Shown: piece after piece, positions 22,054 to 31,240 of the stretch
How the letters are laid out: every line of letters begins with the position of its first letter
Numbering within the stretch: the stretch's first letter is position 1
Source: an uncultured Bacteroidia bacterium
GTDB taxonomy: Bacteria; Bacteroidota; Bacteroidia; Bacteroidales; F082
Direction: 5' to 3'
Assembly (NCBI GenBank): GCA_902769875.1
Contig: CACXQV010000018.1
Span: forward strand, 1 to 42,350
Length of the DNA: 42,350 bases
The notes under the pieces: model-generated
What the model was told of the DNA's origin: nothing
Seen by the model: only the letters and a program-made list of their open reading frames with translations
The model's database searches: none
Program-made: the position numbers and the translations under genes

Positions 22054-24209
22054 AGATCGACCCGAAAACCGACATGCTTTGGAAGACCTACTTGGTCTAT
22101 ATCCTCACCTTGGTCTTTGGCGTGGCCATCATCGTGAAAATCGTGATTGCCCAAACCAAGGACAACAAGGAGCTTTTGGCCTTGGCCGAGCAACGAGAAT
22201 ACCGCGTCAGGACATTGGAGGCTTCGCGCGGCAACATCTTCTCGAGCGACGGCCAGCTGATGGCCACTTCCATCCCACTCTACGACGTATTCTTCGACTA
22301 CAAGACCGTGGATTCAACACTCCTTGCCGACAACATCGACTCGCTCTGCCGGCAAATGGCAGGCCTGTTCCCCAAAAGAAATGCCGCACAATGGAAGGCT
22401 TTCTTTGCCGAAGGCATAGCCAAAAAGAACCGTCACTACAAAATAGCCCTCAACATCACCCAGCCGCAGCTGCGCCAAATGGAGAAATTCGTCATTTTCA
22501 AGGAAGGCATATACAAGGGCGGAATGATTGCGGAGAAAAAAATCCGTCGCGAGCATCCCTACAAGGAACTTGCCAGCCTCATGCTTGGCATGGCCAACGA
22601 GCAAAAAGGCTATTATTTCGGGCTGGAAGGCGCCTATAACGACTACCTCAAAGGGCAAAACGGACGGCAGTTGGTGCGCCGCATCCACCATGGCGACTGG
22701 ATGCCCGTAGGCTCGGAAGACGACCTCGACGCCAAAAACGGCGACGACGTCGTCACCACCTTCGACATCAAGCTGCAAGACATCGTTGAGACCGCGCTCA
22801 ACAACACCTTGACCACCAACAAGGCCGAGCAAGGCTGCGCCATACTGATGGACGTGGAGACGGGCTATGTGAAAGCCTTGGCCAACCTCAGCCTCAACCA
22901 CAAGACCGGAAAATATGAAGAGCTCTACAACGTGGCCCTCACCGAGCGTTACGAACCCGGTTCGGTGTTCAAAATCGCCTCGATGGTGGTGCTGCTCAAC
23001 CACAAGGAGGATATGCAGCTCACCGACTTGGTCAATATCGGGACGGGTCCCATCAAGTTCTCGAACCGCACGATGAAAGACGACCACAGTTTTGCCAAGG
23101 GCGGCATCTGCACCGTTCAGGAGGTCATCGAACAATCGTCGAACAAAGGCACGGCGGTATTGGTTACCAAAGCCTTCGCCGCCCACCCGGAGAAATATGT
23201 CGAAGGTCTTTACGCCTTGGGGCTGAACAAGAAAATCGGGACGGGCATCGCCGGCGAGGCACAACCCGTCATCAAGCACCCAAACGACAAGACCAAGGAC
23301 GGGCACAAGCTCTGGTCGAACGTTTCGTTGCCTTGGATGTCAATCGGATACGAAGTCAACGTGACGCCCATGCAGCTCCTTATGCTTTACAACGCCATCG
23401 CCAACAATGGCCGTCTGATGAAGCCTCAATTCGTCACCGAAATCAAGCGAGGCAACCAAACCATCGAAAAATTCGACCCCATCGTGCTTAACGAGCACAT
23501 CGCTTCGACCGAATCCATCGAAAAGTTGCAGACCATGCTGGAAGGTGTCGCCATCAGAGGCACAGCCCGACGGCAGTTCCAAGGCTGTGTGGTCAAAGTG
23601 GCGGGCAAGACGGGCACGGCACAATATTATGACAAGGTGCAAGGCTACGCCTATCATGAGCCGGGCATCGGACGACGACTGTACAACACCACTTTTGTTG
23701 GCTACTTCCCCACCGACAAGCCACGCTACAGCTGCATCGTGATGGTGAGCCGCGCCCGTGGAGCCAAGTGGGCAGCAGGTGGCGTTTCGGCGCCCGGATT
23801 CAGGGAAATCGCCGAAAAAGTCTATGCCACGCGCATCGGCATCCAAGAGGACGACACGACAATCATGGGCAAAAAGACGTTCATCGCACCTTATCTCGTC
23901 CGTCGCGACAAAGAGACGCAATACCTCAACGGCATCGCCAAGCCATACAACGACTTCGCCATCAACGGGGAATGGGTCACAGTGGAAAACACCGAGACAG
24001 GCGAGACCCATATCCGCGAGGCCAAGCTCGACAACCAAGTCGTACCCAACGTGGTCGGCATGGACATCACCGACGCCGTCTACCTGTTGGAGAATATGGG
24101 CATCAGCACCAACTTCAACGGGCAAGGCACCGTCAAAGAGCAATCGCTGCATGCCGGCGACACGCTCAAACCCAACAGCATTATGCACTTAACATTGGCA
24201 AAAAAATGA
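22050..24209 (+). CDS. ftsI: Septal transpeptidase FtsI (PBP3 type) with PASTA domain
   Basis: This 719-residue protein cross-links septal peptidoglycan. It has an N-terminal membrane helix (residues 14-34), a dimerisation domain (RGNIFSSDGQLMATS), and a transpeptidase domain with the active-site Ser305 in GSVFK (305-308 SxxK), SSN at 363-365 and KTG at 520-522. The last 60 residues form one PASTA domain (VVPNVVGMDITDAVYLL), common in the Bacteroidota version. All catalytic motifs are intact. Start and stop overlap ftsL and murE by ATGA. Confidence 0.96.
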   Translation: MKIDPKTDMLWKTYLVYILTLVFGVAIIVKIVIAQTKDNKELLALAEQREYRVRTLEASRGNIFSSDGQLMATSIPLYDVFFDYKTVDSTLLADNIDSLCRQMAGLFPKRNAAQWKAFFAEGIAKKNRHYKIALNITQPQLRQMEKFVIFKEGIYKGGMIAEKKIRREHPYKELASLMLGMANEQKGYYFGLEGAYNDYLKGQNGRQLVRRIHHGDWMPVGSEDDLDAKNGDDVVTTFDIKLQDIVETALNNTLTTNKAEQGCAILMDVETGYVKALANLSLNHKTGKYEELYNVALTERYEPGSVFKIASMVVLLNHKEDMQLTDLVNIGTGPIKFSNRTMKDDHSFAKGGICTVQEVIEQSSNKGTAVLVTKAFAAHPEKYVEGLYALGLNKKIGTGIAGEAQPVIKHPNDKTKDGHKLWSNVSLPWMSIGYEVNVTPMQLLMLYNAIANNGRLMKPQFVTEIKRGNQTIEKFDPIVLNEHIASTESIEKLQTMLEGVAIRGTARRQFQGCVVKVAGKTGTAQYYDKVQGYAYHEPGIGRRLYNTTFVGYFPTDKPRYSCIVMVSRARGAKWAAGGVSAPGFREIAEKVYATRIGIQEDDTTIMGKKTFIAPYLVRRDKETQYLNGIAKPYNDFAINGEWVTVENTETGETHIREAKLDNQVVPNVVGMDITDAVYLLENMGISTNFNGQGTVKEQSLHAGDTLKPNSIMHLTLAKK

Positions 24210-25663
24210 AAATCAAAGAGATATTAGTCAACTGCAACCTCTTGGACATCGTAGGCAACAAGGACCTCGACATCCCTAACATCACCTTCGATTCGCGCCA
24301 AGTGGAACAAGACACCCTGTTTTTTGCGGTGAAAGGCACGCAAGCAGACGGTCACGACTACATCGACAAGGCCATCGAGCAAGGCGCATCGGCCATCGTA
24401 TGCGAGAAAATGCCATCGAAGAAACAAGACAATGTCACATACATCAAGGTCGACAACTCGGCCTACGTCCTCGGCGTTGCCGCCTCGAATTTCTTTGGCA
24501 ACCCTTCGGAAAAAATGCGCTTGGTTGGCGTGACCGGCACCAACGGCAAAACCACCATCGCCACTTTGCTCTATAGGCTTTTCACCGATGCGGGCTACAG
24601 TTGCGGACTGCTCTCCACCATCGAGAACATCGTCGACCGCAGCGTCATCCCTTCCACCCACACCACTCCCGACCCCATCGAGCTGAACGGCTTGCTGCAC
24701 CAAATGGCCGAAGCGGGTTGCGAATACGCTTTCATGGAAGTGAGCTCACACAGCGTGGCGCAAGACCGCATAGCGGGGCTGCACTTCGCGGGCGGCATCT
24801 TCACCAACCTCACCCATGACCATCTCGACTACCACAAGACGATGGCCAACTACCGCAACGCCAAAAAGAAATTCTTTGACGACCTGCCCCAAACGGCCTT
24901 CGCACTCACCAACCTCGACGACAAAAACGGGGAGTATATGCTGCAAAACACACGAGCCCGCAAGCTGAGCTACGCCCTGAAGCACGACGCCGACTTCAAA
25001 GGCATCATCATGGAAAGCCATTTTGACGGCATGATGCTCAAGGTGAACGGAAGGGAGATGTTCACCCGACTCGTGGGCGGCTTCAACGCCAGCAACCTGT
25101 TGGCCATCTATGGCGCGGCCATCGCTTTGGGCTTCGACAAAGAGGAACTCTTGGTCGAAATCAGCAAGCTGCGCGGCGCCAATGGCCGTTTCGACATAGT
25201 GCATTCAGCGAATGGCATCGTCGGCATCGTCGACTATGCCCACACGCCCGACGCTTTGGAGAACGTCCTGAAAACCATCAACGAGGTGAGAGGCCATAAG
25301 GAAACGCTCATCACCGTGGTAGGCTGTGGCGGCAATCGCGACACCACCAAGCGTCCTGAGATGGCTGCCGTGGCTGTCAAGCTGAGCGACAAGGCGATTC
25401 TCACCAGCGACAATCCCCGCTTCGAAGACCCCGACGAAATCATCCGCCAGATGAAGGCGGGCATTGCCGACGAAGACCGTCACAAAGCGCTGAGCATCAC
25501 CAACCGGAAAGAGGCCATCCGCACCGCCGTGGCCCTTGCCAAAAAAGGCGACATCATCCTCTTGGCCGGCAAAGGGCACGAGAACTATCAGGAAATCAAC
25601 GGAATCAAGAACCATTTTGACGACAAGGAAGTCTTGTCGGAAGCTTTTAAGGAGGCCATGTAA
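24206..25663 (+). CDS. murE: UDP-MurNAc-tripeptide synthetase MurE (meso-diaminopimelate type)
   Basis: This 485-residue cytoplasmic ligase adds the third amino acid to UDP-MurNAc-L-Ala-D-Glu. It shows the P-loop GVTGTNGKTT (108-117), the uridine region TFDSRQVE (28-35), the carbamylated-lysine region YRNAKKKFF (216-224) and SDNPR (401-405). The DNPR motif marks use of meso-diaminopimelate rather than lysine. The domain set is complete, in contrast to the murD remnant two genes on. It overlaps mraY by one base (TAATG). Confidence 0.96.
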   Translation: MKIKEILVNCNLLDIVGNKDLDIPNITFDSRQVEQDTLFFAVKGTQADGHDYIDKAIEQGASAIVCEKMPSKKQDNVTYIKVDNSAYVLGVAASNFFGNPSEKMRLVGVTGTNGKTTIATLLYRLFTDAGYSCGLLSTIENIVDRSVIPSTHTTPDPIELNGLLHQMAEAGCEYAFMEVSSHSVAQDRIAGLHFAGGIFTNLTHDHLDYHKTMANYRNAKKKFFDDLPQTAFALTNLDDKNGEYMLQNTRARKLSYALKHDADFKGIIMESHFDGMMLKVNGREMFTRLVGGFNASNLLAIYGAAIALGFDKEELLVEISKLRGANGRFDIVHSANGIVGIVDYAHTPDALENVLKTINEVRGHKETLITVVGCGGNRDTTKRPEMAAVAVKLSDKAILTSDNPRFEDPDEIIRQMKAGIADEDRHKALSITNRKEAIRTAVALAKKGDIILLAGKGHENYQEINGIKNHFDDKEVLSEAFKEAM

Positions 25664-26940
25664 TGCTGTACTATCTGTTCAATTATTTGCACCAACACGA
25701 TTTTCCCGGTGCAGGCGTGTTCAACTACGTCACCTTCCGTGCGGCGGCGGCCATCATTTTGGCCCTCATCATCTCGGTGTGGTTCGGCAATTGGTTCATC
25801 AAATTGCTGAAACGCAAGAAAATCGTTGAAACACAACGCGATGTGGCCACCGACCCCTACAACACCAAGAAAGTGGGAGTGCCCACCATGGGCGGTGTCA
25901 TCATCATTGCGGCCATCCTGATTCCCGTATTGCTCGTCTGCAAGCTGCACAGCATCTATACCATCCTTATGATTGTCACCACATTGATTCTCGGCATTTT
26001 GGGTTTCTCCGACGACTACATCAAGACCTTCAAGCACAACAAGGAAGGCCTCAAGCCGAAAGTCAAGTTGGGCGGGCAGATACTTTTGGGCCTCATCGTC
26101 GGCCTCACCCTGCGTTTCAGCCCAGCGGTGCATATCAACGAAACCGTACAGCTGAAAATCGAGAACAACAAGGAAATCGTGGTGAAAAGCCCCGACGTGA
26201 AATCGACGCGGACGACCATTCCCTTCGTGAAGAACCACAACCTCAACTACGCCGACCTGTTCAAATGGGCAGGCCCGAAATGGATGTACAACCTCGCTTG
26301 GGTCTTCTTCGTGCTGCTCACCGTTTTCGTGGTGGCTGCCGTCAGCAACGGCTCCAACCTCAACGACGGGATGGACGGCATGGCCTCGGGCAACTCAGCC
26401 ATCATCGGCCTGACCTTGGTCATTTTGGCCTACATTTCGAGCAACGCCGTGACCGCCAGCCACTTCAACCTCATGTACATCCCCGGCAGCGAAGAGTTGG
26501 TTGTCTTCATGTCGGCATTCGTGGGTTCCTTGATCGGCTTCCTTTGGTTCAACTCCTACCCTGCCCAAATCTTCATGGGCGACACGGGCAGCCTGACCAT
26601 AGGCGGCCTCATAGCGGTGTCGGCCATCATCATGCACAAGGAGCTGCTGCTGCCCTTGCTCTGCGGCGTGTTCCTCGTCGAAATCCTTTCCGACTTGGAC
26701 GTGAAACGTTTCGTCAAGACCGGCAAGAAGCACCGCATCTGGAAGAAAGGCCCCGTCCACGACCACTTCCGCACCAGCTACAGCGACTTCAAGAAGGCTT
26801 GGCCCAACTCGACCGTCACCTTCAAAGGGCAGGGCGAGGGCTACAACATCGTTCACCACGAAGTGAAAATCACCATCCGTTTCTGGATCATCACCATCCT
26901 TTTGGCGGCATTTACGCTCATCACATTCAAAATCAGATAA
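25663..26940 (+). CDS. mraY: Phospho-MurNAc-pentapeptide translocase MraY
   Basis: This 425-residue integral membrane enzyme moves phospho-MurNAc-pentapeptide onto undecaprenyl phosphate to give lipid I. It shows the paired-Asp motif FSDDYIKTFK, NLNDGMDGMASG with the third catalytic Asp, GDTGSL, and the terminal KKGPVHDHFR-like stretch (WKKGPVHDHFRTSY). It is longer than the E. coli enzyme (about 360) because of a periplasmic insert around residues 148-200 (VHINETVQLKIENN, VKSPDVKSTRTTIPFV), as in other Bacteroidota. Confidence 0.96.
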   Translation: MLYYLFNYLHQHDFPGAGVFNYVTFRAAAAIILALIISVWFGNWFIKLLKRKKIVETQRDVATDPYNTKKVGVPTMGGVIIIAAILIPVLLVCKLHSIYTILMIVTTLILGILGFSDDYIKTFKHNKEGLKPKVKLGGQILLGLIVGLTLRFSPAVHINETVQLKIENNKEIVVKSPDVKSTRTTIPFVKNHNLNYADLFKWAGPKWMYNLAWVFFVLLTVFVVAAVSNGSNLNDGMDGMASGNSAIIGLTLVILAYISSNAVTASHFNLMYIPGSEELVVFMSAFVGSLIGFLWFNSYPAQIFMGDTGSLTIGGLIAVSAIIMHKELLLPLLCGVFLVEILSDLDVKRFVKTGKKHRIWKKGPVHDHFRTSYSDFKKAWPNSTVTFKGQGEGYNIVHHEVKITIRFWIITILLAAFTLITFKIR

Positions 26941-26961
26941 TCAACAAGACAACAGAATACC

Positions 26962-27528
26962 ATGAACTACCTTCAAGAATTAATCAATCCAAGACCGAAG
27001 CAATCCAATTCGATGGTTGCAGGAATCACATCGAAAGTATTGCAAATCAGAAAAGAAAGCATCAAAGAAAGCCTTAGCGACCTGAACACCATAGGGCATA
27101 GGCAAGACTATGTGGCCACCATCGGCAACGTGATGTATTACGACGATTCGAGAGCCGAGAGCGTAAACGCCACTTGGTTCACCTTTGAGAACATCGTCCG
27201 TCCTGTGGTTTGGATTGCCGGCGGCTACGACCGCGACACCGACTTCAGGGAGCTGAAGCAAGCGGTCAGGAAGAAAGTGCGTGCGCTGATTTGCATCGGG
27301 AGGTACAACGCCAACCTGAAAAACACGTTCCAAAAGGACATCAAGGAAATCTACGAAGTGAAGAGCATGGACGAAGCCGTCGATTTGGCGTCGTTTTTGG
27401 CCAAGGAAGAGGACATTGTGCTGTTTTCGCCCGCTTGCAAGTCGGAAAACGAAGACGAGACTTACATCGAGCGCGGCAACCTGTTCACCGACACCGTCAA
27501 GAAACTGGAATATGAATGTCTTCAATAA
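26962..27528 (+). CDS. MurD-derived protein: C-terminal domain only
   Basis: At the normal murD place, between mraY and ftsW, stands a 188-residue reading frame that matches only the last third of MurD. After 15 unplaced residues (MNYLQELINPRPKQS) it enters at NSMVAGITSKVLQIRKESI, the end of the central domain, and continues with the C-terminal glutamate-ligase domain (HRQDYVATIGNVMYYDD, PVVWIAGGYDRDTDF). The UDP-binding and ATP-binding domains, including the GTNGKT P-loop, are wholly absent. Two motifs are changed: NDSKATN is DDSRAES, and SPACASFDxF is SPACKSENEDET. It therefore cannot be a normal ligase. The frame is open, codon use is like its neighbours, and its end overlaps ftsW by 17 bases, so it appears to be kept. 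Either a decayed gene or a repurposed domain; a true murD must lie elsewhere. Confidence 0.88.
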   Translation: MNYLQELINPRPKQSNSMVAGITSKVLQIRKESIKESLSDLNTIGHRQDYVATIGNVMYYDDSRAESVNATWFTFENIVRPVVWIAGGYDRDTDFRELKQAVRKKVRALICIGRYNANLKNTFQKDIKEIYEVKSMDEAVDLASFLAKEEDIVLFSPACKSENEDETYIERGNLFTDTVKKLEYECLQ

Positions 27529-28807
27529 AATATTGAGAGGCGACAAAGTCATCTGGATCGTGGCGTTGTTGTTGGGCATCATTTCGCTCATCGTGGTGTA
27601 TAGCGCGACGAGTGCCTACGCGACCAACAACTACAAAGGCGACACGGGCAAGGTGCTGATGCGGCATCTCGGCACGTTGGTTTTCGGCTTCATGATGATG
27701 TATGCGACCTACAAAATCAACTACAAGCATTTCGCAAAAGCCGCCTTGCTCTTGCTGATACCTTGCTTGGCTTTGTTGGTCTACACGCTCGTCTTCGGAC
27801 AGCACCTGAACGAGGCCAACCGTTCCATCAACATCGGCGGTTTCTCATTCCAGCCAAGCGAGATGGCCAAAATCATCCTCATCACCTATCTGGCGCGACA
27901 GCTCATCATGATGGAAGGCAAGGTCTACAATTTCAAGGACTTCCTCATCAAGTTGGCCCTGCCCATCTTGTGTACCGTCGGCCTGATTTTCACCGAGAAC
28001 CTCTCCACGGCCCTCATCCTCACCGCCGTTTGCATGGTGCTGCTTTTCGTCGGGCGTGCAAGATTCGTCCATATCCTGTCGCTCGTCGGGCTTTGCGTCG
28101 TTGGAATGGGGTTCTATCTTGCCTTGGATGCCATCAGCACCAACAGGCACAACAGGCATGCATTGAAGGCCCAGCAGGTGGCCATTGCCCAAGGCGACAC
28201 CTCCAAGGAGTACAAGGAAAAGCAAAGCCGCGTGATGACTTGGGTGAACCGCATCAAGACGATGGGCGAAGACAAGGAGAACATCGACCCCTTCGACGAC
28301 CGCCACATGCAGCGCACATACGCCGACATCGCCGTGGCTTCAGGCTCCATCTTCGGCAAAGGACCCGGCAAGAGCGAACAACGGAACTTCCTGCCCCACC
28401 CCTATTCCGACTTCATCTATGCCATCATCATCGAGGAATACGGCATTGTCGGCGGCATCATCGTCTTGCTGCTTTATGTCATACTCTTCACAAGGGTGAT
28501 ACGCATCGTAAGCCGGCGAGCCGTCACCTTCGGCGCGTTGATGTCGTTCGGCCTGGGATTCCTCGTCGTTATGCAAGCCATGGTCAATATGGGCGTATCC
28601 ATAGGCTTGTTGCCCGTCACAGGCCAGCCTATGCCCTTCGTCAGTATGGGCGGCACCTCATTGATGGCCACAGGAATCATCCTCGGAATGATTTTGAGCG
28701 TTACGCGCACCATGGAGGACGAAGCCATCAGCGACCAGCAAGAATTGGAAATAATCAAGGAAACAATTGATACAGAAGATGAAAGAGAACTTGAAAGTGG
28801 TGATTAG
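27512..28807 (+). CDS. ftsW: SEDS-family septal glycosyltransferase FtsW
   Basis: This 431-residue polytopic membrane protein polymerises lipid II at the septum together with FtsI. The family pattern is visible: VVYSATSAYA in the first helix, NIGGFSFQPSEMAKI with the SEDS hallmark, FLPHPYSDFIYAIIIEEYGI, and TGQPMPFVSMGGTSL near the end. ATG 27512 (MNVFNKILRGDK) lies inside the end of the MurD-derived gene. The long loop between residues 190 and 275 (ISTNRHNRHALKAQQ) is typical of Bacteroidota. Confidence 0.95.
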   Translation: MNVFNKILRGDKVIWIVALLLGIISLIVVYSATSAYATNNYKGDTGKVLMRHLGTLVFGFMMMYATYKINYKHFAKAALLLLIPCLALLVYTLVFGQHLNEANRSINIGGFSFQPSEMAKIILITYLARQLIMMEGKVYNFKDFLIKLALPILCTVGLIFTENLSTALILTAVCMVLLFVGRARFVHILSLVGLCVVGMGFYLALDAISTNRHNRHALKAQQVAIAQGDTSKEYKEKQSRVMTWVNRIKTMGEDKENIDPFDDRHMQRTYADIAVASGSIFGKGPGKSEQRNFLPHPYSDFIYAIIIEEYGIVGGIIVLLLYVILFTRVIRIVSRRAVTFGALMSFGLGFLVVMQAMVNMGVSIGLLPVTGQPMPFVSMGGTSLMATGIILGMILSVTRTMEDEAISDQQELEIIKETIDTEDERELESGD

Positions 28808-29882
28808 CGGCGGCGGCACGGGCGGGCACATTTTTCCAGCCATCGCCATCGCGGATGCCTTGAAGCGGAGATTCCCCAAGGGCGACATCCTTTTTATAGG
28901 TGCCAAAGGCCGCATGGAGATGGAGCGCGTGCCCAAAGCGGGCTATCCCATCGAAGGCCTGTGGATCAGCGGATTCACCAAGGACATACGCTCGCTCACG
29001 CTGCCACTCAAACTCGTTGACAGCATCAATCACGCCATCGCCATCCTGAAACGCTTCAAGCCTGATGTGGTGATTGGCGTGGGCGGCTATGCCAGCGGCC
29101 CCACGCTGAAAGCCGCCAACTGGCTCGGCATTCCCACAGTCATACAAGAACAGAACTCGTATCCCGGCAAGACCAACCGCAACGTGGGCCAAAAGGCCAA
29201 GGCCATCTGCGTTGCCTACGACCACTTAGACCAATGGTTCCCCGCCGAGAAAATCCACTTCACGGGCAATCCGCTGAGAGCCAACATCAAGCTCAACTGT
29301 ACCCGTGAGGAAGCCGCACAATACTTCCACCTCAACCCGGAAAAGCCCGTTGCGCTGCTCGTAGGCGGAAGCCAAGGCGCCTTGGGCATCAACAAGGGCA
29401 TCAGCGCCCAGCTCGCCGCCTTCAAGGACAGCGACCTGCAACTCATTTGGCAAACCGGCAAAAACTACATCGACCAAGCCCAAGCCGAAGTGAAAGCCTT
29501 AGCCCTTGAAAACCAAGTGAAACCCACCGTTTTCATCGACAGGATGGACTTGGCATACGGAATTGCCGACGTGGTCATTTCGCGCGCCGGCGCCATGTCG
29601 ATTTCGGAGCTTGCATTGGTGCAAAAGCCTGTCATTTTCGTGCCTCTGCCCACAGCCGCCGAAGACCATCAGACCAAAAACGCACAGCAGCTCGTCAATG
29701 CCGGAGCGGCCATCATGGTGCGCAACTCCGACACAGAGAAAGAGCTTGTGCCCACCCTGTTCAAGTTGGCACAAGACAAGGCACTTCAAGAGAAAATGAG
29801 CGCAAACATCGGCAAGTTTGCCCGACCCAATGCCGCTGACGACATTGTGGACCAAATCGTTAAAGCAATAAACACAAAATAA
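28779..29882 (+). CDS. murG: UDP-GlcNAc:lipid I N-acetylglucosaminyltransferase MurG
   Basis: This 367-residue peripheral membrane GT-B enzyme turns lipid I into lipid II. It shows the N-terminal VVISGGGTGGHIFPAIAIA, GVGGYASGPTLKAA, QEQNSYPGKTNR and the donor site GGSQGALGIN, then RAGAMSISELA and PLPTAAEDHQTKNA. ATG 28779 is preferred to an in-frame TTG at 28767. It overlaps ftsW by 29 bases and murC follows after 5 bases. Confidence 0.97.
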   Translation: MKENLKVVISGGGTGGHIFPAIAIADALKRRFPKGDILFIGAKGRMEMERVPKAGYPIEGLWISGFTKDIRSLTLPLKLVDSINHAIAILKRFKPDVVIGVGGYASGPTLKAANWLGIPTVIQEQNSYPGKTNRNVGQKAKAICVAYDHLDQWFPAEKIHFTGNPLRANIKLNCTREEAAQYFHLNPEKPVALLVGGSQGALGINKGISAQLAAFKDSDLQLIWQTGKNYIDQAQAEVKALALENQVKPTVFIDRMDLAYGIADVVISRAGAMSISELALVQKPVIFVPLPTAAEDHQTKNAQQLVNAGAAIMVRNSDTEKELVPTLFKLAQDKALQEKMSANIGKFARPNAADDIVDQIVKAINTK

Positions 29883-29887
29883 AGATT

Positions 29888-31240
29888 ATGAAGAGCGGAG
29901 AAGGACATACGATTTATTTTTTAGGTATCGGTGGCATCGGCATGAGCGCCTTGGCACGTTATTACCACAGCGAAGGCTACTCGGTGGCCGGTTACGACCG
30001 CACCCCTTCTCCGCTGACGAAGCAATTGGAAAATGAGGGCATGGCCATCCATTATGAAGACAATCCGGCTTTATTGCCTGCCCTCATTGACTTCGTCGTC
30101 TACACCCCAGCCGTGCCTTGCGACCTCAACGAGTTTGAGGCATTGCGCCAACGCCAGCTTCCCATCCTGAAACGCTCGCAGGCTTTAGGCCGAATTTCGG
30201 AAAGCCACTACGCCATTTGCGTGGCTGGCACGCACGGAAAAACCACCACCACGGCCATGGCAGCCCACATCATGCACTCTTGTCATGTGGACACCTTGGC
30301 TTTCATTGGCGGCATCGCCAACAATTTCGACAGCAACCTTGTGTTGGGGAAGGGCAACGACAGCGTCATGGTCGTCGAAGCCGACGAATTCGACCGCTCG
30401 TTCTTGCAGCTTCGCCCCGACATCAGCATCATCAATTCCATCGATGCCGACCACTTGGACATTTATGGCGACAAGCAGCATTTGGTGCAGAGCTTCAACG
30501 ACTTCGCCCATCTCACCACCCAATGCGTCATCGTCAAGGAAGGGCTCGGCATAGAGGCGGCAAACGCCATCCGCTTCGGCTTTGGCGAGGAATGCGACTA
30601 TCGAGCCATGATCCACAGTTCGGAACGAGGCACGACGCGTTTCGGCATCGTCCACAACGGGCAAGCCACCGAAATCACATTGCCGATGGCGGGCCGCCAC
30701 AATGTGCTGAACGCCACGGCGGCATTTGCAGCCGCCTGCGAAAAAGGCCTCAAGCCAACCGACATCGCCCAAGCATTGGCCTCGTTCAAAGGCGTGAAAC
30801 GACGCTTCGACATCCGCGTCAACAACGAACACCACTGTTACATAGACGATTATGCCCATCATCCCGAAGAAATCAAATCGTGCTTGTTGGCCGTGAGAGA
30901 AGCCTTCCCCACAAAGCGCATCACGCTCGTCTTCCAGCCCCATCTGTTCAGCCGCACCCGCGATTTCATGGACGGTTTCGCCGATGTTTTGGCTTTGGCC
31001 GACGAATTGGTCCTTTTGGACATCTATCCCGCCCGCGAATCGCCCATCGAGGGCATCAGCTCGGCGGTCTTATTAGGAAAAGTGCAAATGACCGACAAGA
31101 AACTCGTTGCCAAGTCGGAGCTCATCGCACTGATTGACAGCGAGAAACCCGAATTGCTCATCACGATGGGCGCAGGCGACATCGACCGTTTTGTTGAACC
31201 CTTGGAAAACCTGATAAAGAAATGGCAAGGAAGATATTAA
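29888..31240 (+). CDS. murC: UDP-N-acetylmuramate--L-alanine ligase MurC
   Basis: This 450-residue ligase adds L-alanine to UDP-MurNAc. It shows the N-terminal FLGIGGIGMSALA nucleotide-sugar site, the P-loop VAGTHGKTTTTA (residues 112-123), VVEADEFDRSFL, the His of IDADHLDIYG, and the C-terminal DDYAHHPEEIK. All three Mur domains are present. It overlaps ftsQ by 19 bases. Confidence 0.97.
   Translation: MKSGEGHTIYFLGIGGIGMSALARYYHSEGYSVAGYDRTPSPLTKQLENEGMAIHYEDNPALLPALIDFVVYTPAVPCDLNEFEALRQRQLPILKRSQALGRISESHYAICVAGTHGKTTTTAMAAHIMHSCHVDTLAFIGGIANNFDSNLVLGKGNDSVMVVEADEFDRSFLQLRPDISIINSIDADHLDIYGDKQHLVQSFNDFAHLTTQCVIVKEGLGIEAANAIRFGFGEECDYRAMIHSSERGTTRFGIVHNGQATEITLPMAGRHNVLNATAAFAAACEKGLKPTDIAQALASFKGVKRRFDIRVNNEHHCYIDDYAHHPEEIKSCLLAVREAFPTKRITLVFQPHLFSRTRDFMDGFADVLALADELVLLDIYPARESPIEGISSAVLLGKVQMTDKKLVAKSELIALIDSEKPELLITMGAGDIDRFVEPLENLIKKWQGRY

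Follow-up and report, generated by a model that had tools for sequence, protein, structure and literature searches.

Repeated trimming of murD to a stand-alone C-terminal domain, retained under selection, in MurL-bearing Bacteroidales

The gene at the murD place encodes only the last third of MurD

In the window (the whole 42,350-nucleotide stretch of DNA analyzed here, from an uncultured Bacteroidia bacterium), the cell-wall and division genes follow the order murE, mraY, a 188-aa open frame, ftsW, murG, murC and onward. The features of this locus are:

24206..25663, plus strand: murE, an intact three-domain ligase (domain scan)
25663..26940, plus strand: mraY, the upstream neighbor (ORF and homology)
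26941..26961, no strand: junction that lacks MurD domains 1 and 2, between the mraY stop and the MurD-C start (ORF positions; sister comparisons of other lineages)
26962..27528, plus strand: MurD-C, a stand-alone MurD C-terminal domain of 188 aa (TIGR01087 positions 273-440, PF02875, AF2/Foldseek, homologues at the murD place)
27142..27162, plus strand: DDSRAES, an altered DSKATN motif with K319 and T321 changed and D317 kept (sequence comparison)
27427..27462, plus strand: SPACKSENEDET, an altered SPACASFDxF motif (sequence comparison)
27512..28807, plus strand: ftsW, with its ATG at 27512, overlapping MurD-C by 17 bases (ORF positions)
28779..29882, plus strand: murG (named from the cluster and matches)
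29888..31240, plus strand: murC, an intact three-domain ligase (domain scan)

Mur ligases are essential three-domain enzymes and drug targets. The frame at 26962-27528 (plus strand, ATG start), however, matched the MurD profile TIGR01087 at model positions 273-440 only (E 1.1e-36), with a score of 126.9 bits versus the curated cut-off of 211.95, and a Pfam scan returned Mur_ligase_C alone (PF02875; 38.5 bits versus a gathering cut-off of 28.4), aligned over the whole domain (1-127 of 127). Of the UDP-binding, ATP-binding (middle) and C-terminal domains of MurD it thus carries the last alone, confirming a sequence-only reading of this DNA which had taken the frame for a MurD C-terminal domain at the murD position. 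The AF2 model of MurD-C (mean pLDDT 81; residues 1-22 below 50) matched the C-domain of solved MurD structures in Foldseek (best E 9.7e-12), and homologues at the murD place were of similar size (176-190 aa). As the mraY stop at 26940 lies ~20 bases before the MurD-C start, there is no room upstream for the two missing domains. The same reading had also noticed that two substrate motifs were altered, which was borne out: DDSRAES replaces DSKATN, so that the D-Glu and catalytic residues of a MurD ligase are not all in place, and SPACKSENEDET stands at SPACASFDxF. Therefore MurD-C shares with full-length MurD its place in the dcw cluster, its fold and homology to the last third, but the domains that bind UDP and ATP are missing, its residues for D-Glu and catalysis are eroded, and it is predicted to be unable to ligate.

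The neighborhood was conserved across short loci: ftsW was directly 3' of the short MurD in 68/68, at distances ranging from an overlap to 272 bases, and mraY was upstream in 65/68, mostly within 120 bases. In the other three, L052 and L208 were at or near contig ends, while L046 (genome G015) had murE directly upstream and no mraY in the locus. Among 80 named GTDB loci with a short MurD, mraY and ftsW both adjoined in 75, ftsW was absent in one, and an upstream mraY was not detected in four (L137, L146, L147 and L151). An assembly artefact or frameshift was rejected on the basis of the 65 loci with mraY upstream, and one short murD gene sits on a contig of 5.26 Mb (genome G183), which also argues against an artefact. 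The coupling to ftsW, described earlier as kept, turned out not to be the inherited state: the overlap occurs in part of the genus, whereas full-length murD relatives with ftsW in view (n=58) mostly had a gap of 0-50 bases. The invariable ftsW neighbor and the 17-base overlap in the window could mean that the stretch is preserved for spacing or translational coupling of ftsW and not as a protein, but the distances to ftsW vary and selection acts on the amino acids (below), making this extremely improbable.

A MurL-MurD2 pair is encoded elsewhere in the genome

Only one MurD passed the cut-off in the window's genome (3.5 Mb, 82.6% complete, 5.7% contaminated), and it lies on contig C59. This protein scored 319.4 bits versus TIGR01087 over positions 1-440 of 441, i.e., a full-length MurD-type ligase. 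Its ORF overlaps that of a MurL homologue (263.1 bits versus NF041275, aligned over 5-392 of 447), which is below the 700-bit cut-off of that Xanthomonadales model, one reached by 0/295 Bacteroidales; the homologue is linked to MurD2 by this overlap, and MurI was not found in the window's genome. At D182, K348, L416 and A414 (E. coli MurD numbering here and below, transferred by alignment), the C59 ligase has E, R, Y and S, residues of the L-Glu type. The signature D182E, K348R, K319I and L416Y was found in 21/21 MurD2s versus 0/6 canonical MurDs, with S or A at A414.

According to two reviews on the Xanthomonas route, MurD2 adds L-Glu, which MurL then epimerises; where E. coli MurD has D182, K348, A414 and L416, the MurD2 of X. 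oryzae has E, R, P and F, and K319T lets E. coli MurD accept L-Glu (PMC8788868, PMC5808125). The string “Bacteroid” is absent from the text of both reviews (PMC8788868, PMC5808125). The likeness to Xanthomonas is threefold: i) the full MurD is of the L-Glu type; ii) it overlaps a MurL homologue; iii) MurI was not found in the window's genome. The differences are that MurL here reaches 263 bits versus the 700-bit Xanthomonadales cut-off, that Y stands at L416 (F in X. oryzae) and S or A at A414 (P in X. oryzae), that MurL and MurD2 form one polypeptide in some relatives, and that the activity of the pair is here a prediction from its genes. With MurL-MurD2 present and MurI not found, MurD2 would add L-Glu and MurL would convert it into D-Glu. 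The fused MurL-MurD2 occurred as a single ORF of 897-910 aa, profile scans covering two of the three, in three genomes of the same genus as the window (L061 3730-6462, plus strand, G031; L062 5954-8647, minus strand, G024; L063 3774-6494, minus strand, G028), and in G019 and G021 MurL and MurD2 were likewise within one open frame.

The earlier proposal that a full murD had been acquired or moved elsewhere was therefore right in that a full-length MurD is found on C59, but not in its nature: the residues identify it as an L-Glu-type MurD2 beside MurL, with MurI not found in that genome, and not as a moved or second D-Glu copy of the local murD. Contamination as the origin of C59 is unlikely since its MurD2 is 87% identical to that of G018, whose MurD-C is the nearest to that of the window. 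The absence of two domains from the window might in principle reflect a split enzyme, with MurD domains 1 and 2 encoded elsewhere and acting with MurD-C in trans, although nothing beyond the missing domains speaks for it: all MurD-model matches in this 82.6%-complete assembly were accounted for (MurD2, MurD-C, MurC, MurE (two stretches), MurF, MurC/Mpl-like ligase and MurF-Alr), and MurD-C has a degraded D-Glu site. The probability of such an arrangement is close to negligible, and it was rejected for the window's genome. Its loci L006, L004 and L007 (contigs C7, C28 and C4) carry a MurF-alanine racemase fusion, a separate MurF that passes the cut-off and an additional MurC/Mpl-like ligase.

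Short MurD is associated with MurL

The same short protein was found at the murD place in 33 of the 36 genomes of the genus (own included), far beyond chance; in the remaining three mraY was not found either. MurL was present in 32/36 (not found in G002, G003, G016 and G023), and MurI, the glutamate racemase, in 0/36, several of these genomes being incomplete, versus 17/24 other Bacteroidales. Across the order, MurL homologues were identified in 95 of 295 sampled genomes, which suggests that D-Glu in much of the order does not come from MurI. MurI over the cut-off was found in 0/80 MurL-bearing genomes, with weaker matches in 18.

Outside the genus, 80 of 96 candidate MurL carriers and 80 of 200 genomes without a MurL match were surveyed. 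Among the MurL carriers the old-type MurD was short in 30, had its other domains in 46 (a count that includes G085 and G047, where the gene runs to or near contig ends) and could not be scored in four: G136 (contig edge), G055 and G156 (only weak mraY-like matches) and G109 (no old-type MurD). Among the MurL-lacking genomes it was full-length in 78, and left out of the count were G178, where it was in two pieces on two contigs, and G157, where no match was found. Thus a short MurD occurred in 30/76 scorable MurL carriers versus 0/78 scorable genomes without MurL (Fisher p 1.7e-11, relatedness ignored). That the full-length MurD of MurL carriers is dead was rejected, as the P-loop and DSKATN were intact in 45/45 examined. 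With 46/76 scorable MurL carriers keeping a full-length MurD, and catalytic residues in 45/45, MurD has not become dispensable in every carrier of the new route. Relatives of D-amino acid aminotransferase (E <= 1e-20, none over the cut-off) were present in 12/20 MurL carriers with full-length MurD, 1/14 with short MurD and 1/6 MurI-bearing genomes; as a source of D-Glu this is suggestive only.

Four genomes departed from the pattern. G050 (98% complete; locus L051), which lies outside the MurL-lacking sample of 80, encodes a diverged MurD-C between mraY and ftsW despite having no MurL. It has MurE, MurF, one MurC/Mpl-like ligase, MraY, an FtsW-type protein and MurG, while a search found in it no MurD over the cut-off, MurD2, MurL or MurI, nor a D-amino acid aminotransferase relative; it perhaps salvages peptidoglycan peptides. 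G023 (97% complete; L029, L264), a member of the genus, has MurD-C and mraY, but neither MurL nor MurD2 was found in it, perhaps owing to an assembly gap. In G016 (77% complete) MurD-C was present and MurL was not found. In G109 (91% complete; L265), a search for an old-type MurD found none and an apbE-like gene comes after mraY, which may represent complete loss of MurD-C. Apart from these genomes, L153, from a record titled Christensenella sp. UBA1214, carries a Bacteroidales short MurD and is probably a misbinned contig.

The tie between short MurD and MurL carriers (30/76 versus 0/78) would also be produced if MurD-C were a trans-acting subunit of the replacement pathway, binding and tuning MurD2 or MurL. 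However, 46/76 MurL carriers do without the short form, MurD-C adjoins ftsW and not murL, and in G050 it persists with neither MurD2 nor MurL found; if G050 is real, the role of the domain needs neither protein. We therefore regard a subunit role as distinctly unlikely.

Truncation of murD was repeated and usually reached the same internal Met

On a tree of MraY plus FtsW (104 rows), the full-length and short states required at least 18 changes with the doubtful row L208 included, and 16 once five doubtful rows were dropped. The domain's own tree (103 rows) required 12: shorts of families f71, f49, f110 and f13 grouped with full-length members of their own family, those of f6 stood apart from the f6 full-length genes, and f27 and f35 did not resolve. 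In a careful 31-row tree, seven shorts, picked after seeing the MraY plus FtsW tree, needed seven changes, and grouping them was rejected (p 6.8e-5). The genus was thinned to 10 of its 33 rows in these trees. With 12-18 changes, truncation was repeated; a single ancestral truncation, or one spreading short gene, is unsupported by the domain's own tree and the 31-row tree. The trimming cases were MurL carriers, plus one further case, G050, without MurL. In MurL-bearing Bacteroidales the old MurD thus lost its first two domains repeatedly, and the cut mostly reached one and the same conserved Met inside the gene, in support of the earlier suggestion that the local copy had been trimmed in frame.

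Of the 34 short genes outside the genus, 23 start at the column of this conserved Met (263 in L033), three start two residues earlier and eight further upstream. Of the full-length genes, 56/59 have the Met, in a sequence context rich in A and poor in G, and the full-length sisters of f35 and f71 also carry an ATG at the place two residues earlier. These observations would fit a murD gene with two products, in which an internal start at the conserved Met yields a C-domain isoform and truncation removed the long product only. On the other hand, the context may reflect only the Asn, Lys and Ile residues encoded, the Met marks the domain boundary, so that any viable deletion would tend toward it, and eight of the 34 start further upstream. 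A two-product murD, which is compatible with docking as proposed below, is from these sequences fairly unlikely.

The retained domain is under purifying selection while its D-Glu site erodes

Among 22 close pairs within the genus (dS 0.05-0.6), the dN/dS of MurD-C had a median of 0.08 and a maximum of 0.21, the median being about twice those of four neighboring genes (0.04-0.05). A wider set of 303 pairs (dS up to 1.0) gave a median of 0.28 and a maximum of 1.10, values probably swollen by saturation, and 12 pairs from other truncated families had dN of 0.16-0.59 with dS saturated or 0.9-2.7. Comparison of synonymous and non-synonymous change thus pointed to purifying selection (the median of 0.08 in 22 pairs) and not to a randomly broken fragment, the outcome by which the sequence-only reading would have recognized simple decay.

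Within the domain, conservation was uneven across the 67 short proteins (34 outside and 33 inside the genus): D317 was present in 67/67, R302 occurred as R or K and F437 as F or Y in 67/67, and a conserved W was found in 64/67. K348, however, was K in only 9/34 non-genus and 5/33 genus shorts (14/67), and T321 was T in 22/34 and 1/33 respectively. The D-Glu site of MurD-C thus erodes. The sequence-only reading had proposed binding of a Mur substrate or a division protein as a putative role; with its site eroding, D-Glu itself would be an improbable ligand. Such erosion of D-Glu and catalytic residues, a dN/dS about twice that of the neighbors and the possible complete loss in G109 are what a functionless leftover on its way out might show. 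Yet dN/dS was below 0.22 in 22/22 close pairs, the 12 pairs of other families showed dN of only 0.16-0.59 at those large dS values, and the gene is kept in 33/36 genus genomes, the other three also lacking mraY; decay is very unlikely.

A probable ligase-independent role for the MurD C-terminal domain

With the C-terminal third still preserved by selection, MurD-C probably does a job other than enzyme chemistry. The explanation we favor comprises five steps: i) MurL-MurD2 would have relieved the old MurD of catalysis; ii) domains 1 and 2 of the old MurD were deleted repeatedly in MurL-bearing Bacteroidales, usually leaving a gene that starts at the same natural internal Met; iii) the domain that is left keeps the position of murD beside ftsW and is held by purifying selection, with its residues for D-Glu and catalysis eroding; iv) it would persist for a ligase-independent role already held by full-length MurD; v) this role would most likely be that of a docking or scaffold piece linking the cytoplasmic Mur enzymes to MraY/MurG and perhaps to FtsW or MreB. 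The replacement genes, the repeated trimming and the selection are evident at the level of sequence, and enzyme replacement together with a retained non-catalytic function is highly probable. Docking specifically is a tentative proposal, and may well be wrong; the explanation as a whole (MurL-MurD2 took over catalysis and MurD-C was kept, most likely for docking) is nearly an even call. Counting against it are the 46/76 MurL carriers with a full-length MurD, the possible loss of MurD-C in G109, the presence of MurD-C in G023 and G016 where MurL was not found, the dN/dS above that of the neighbors, the higher values in the wider set of 303 pairs, and the f6 shorts that stand apart from their full-length relatives. 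Evenly balanced, in our judgment, is the wider proposition that the MurD C-domain serves the cell-wall or division machinery of Bacteroidales in a role of its own, selected and independent of ligation, possibly already as an internal-start isoform, and that enzyme replacement, with deletion of the catalytic two thirds, exposed this role many times.

Recognition of MreB, MraY and MurG by individual Mur enzymes has been reported, and MurG and MreB were described as scaffolds for the Mur ligases, MurD included (PMC4929429); moreover MurG binds MurE-MurF (PMC6420597). In the portions of these two articles drawn on here, MurD is named among the scaffolded enzymes, which offers a possible role for MurD-C, whereas no contact is ascribed to the C-domain, so that scaffolding of MurD-C is putative (PMC4929429, PMC6420597).

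The fold and the pathway are known, and what is new is the stand-alone, repeatedly derived and selected MurD C-domain; a search of the open-licence PMC literature, outside which most subscription journals lie, found no description of a MurD consisting of the C-domain only. The catalytic domains have been deleted in nature repeatedly while the last third was kept, which is evidence from comparison that MurD has a second function, and the short MurDs are ready-made minimal constructs for finding its partner.

As a minor observation, the AF2 model of MurD-C also had fold matches in the PDB to plastid RNA polymerase chains, which we take to be probably its MurE-like subunit. That subunit resembles the case proposed here in being a Mur ligase relative that serves inside another complex, but it is a relative of MurE whereas MurD-C is a lone MurD C-domain, and the matches were weak (8qma_O, 8ras_Q and 8r6s_Q; E 2.5e-4 to 8e-4).
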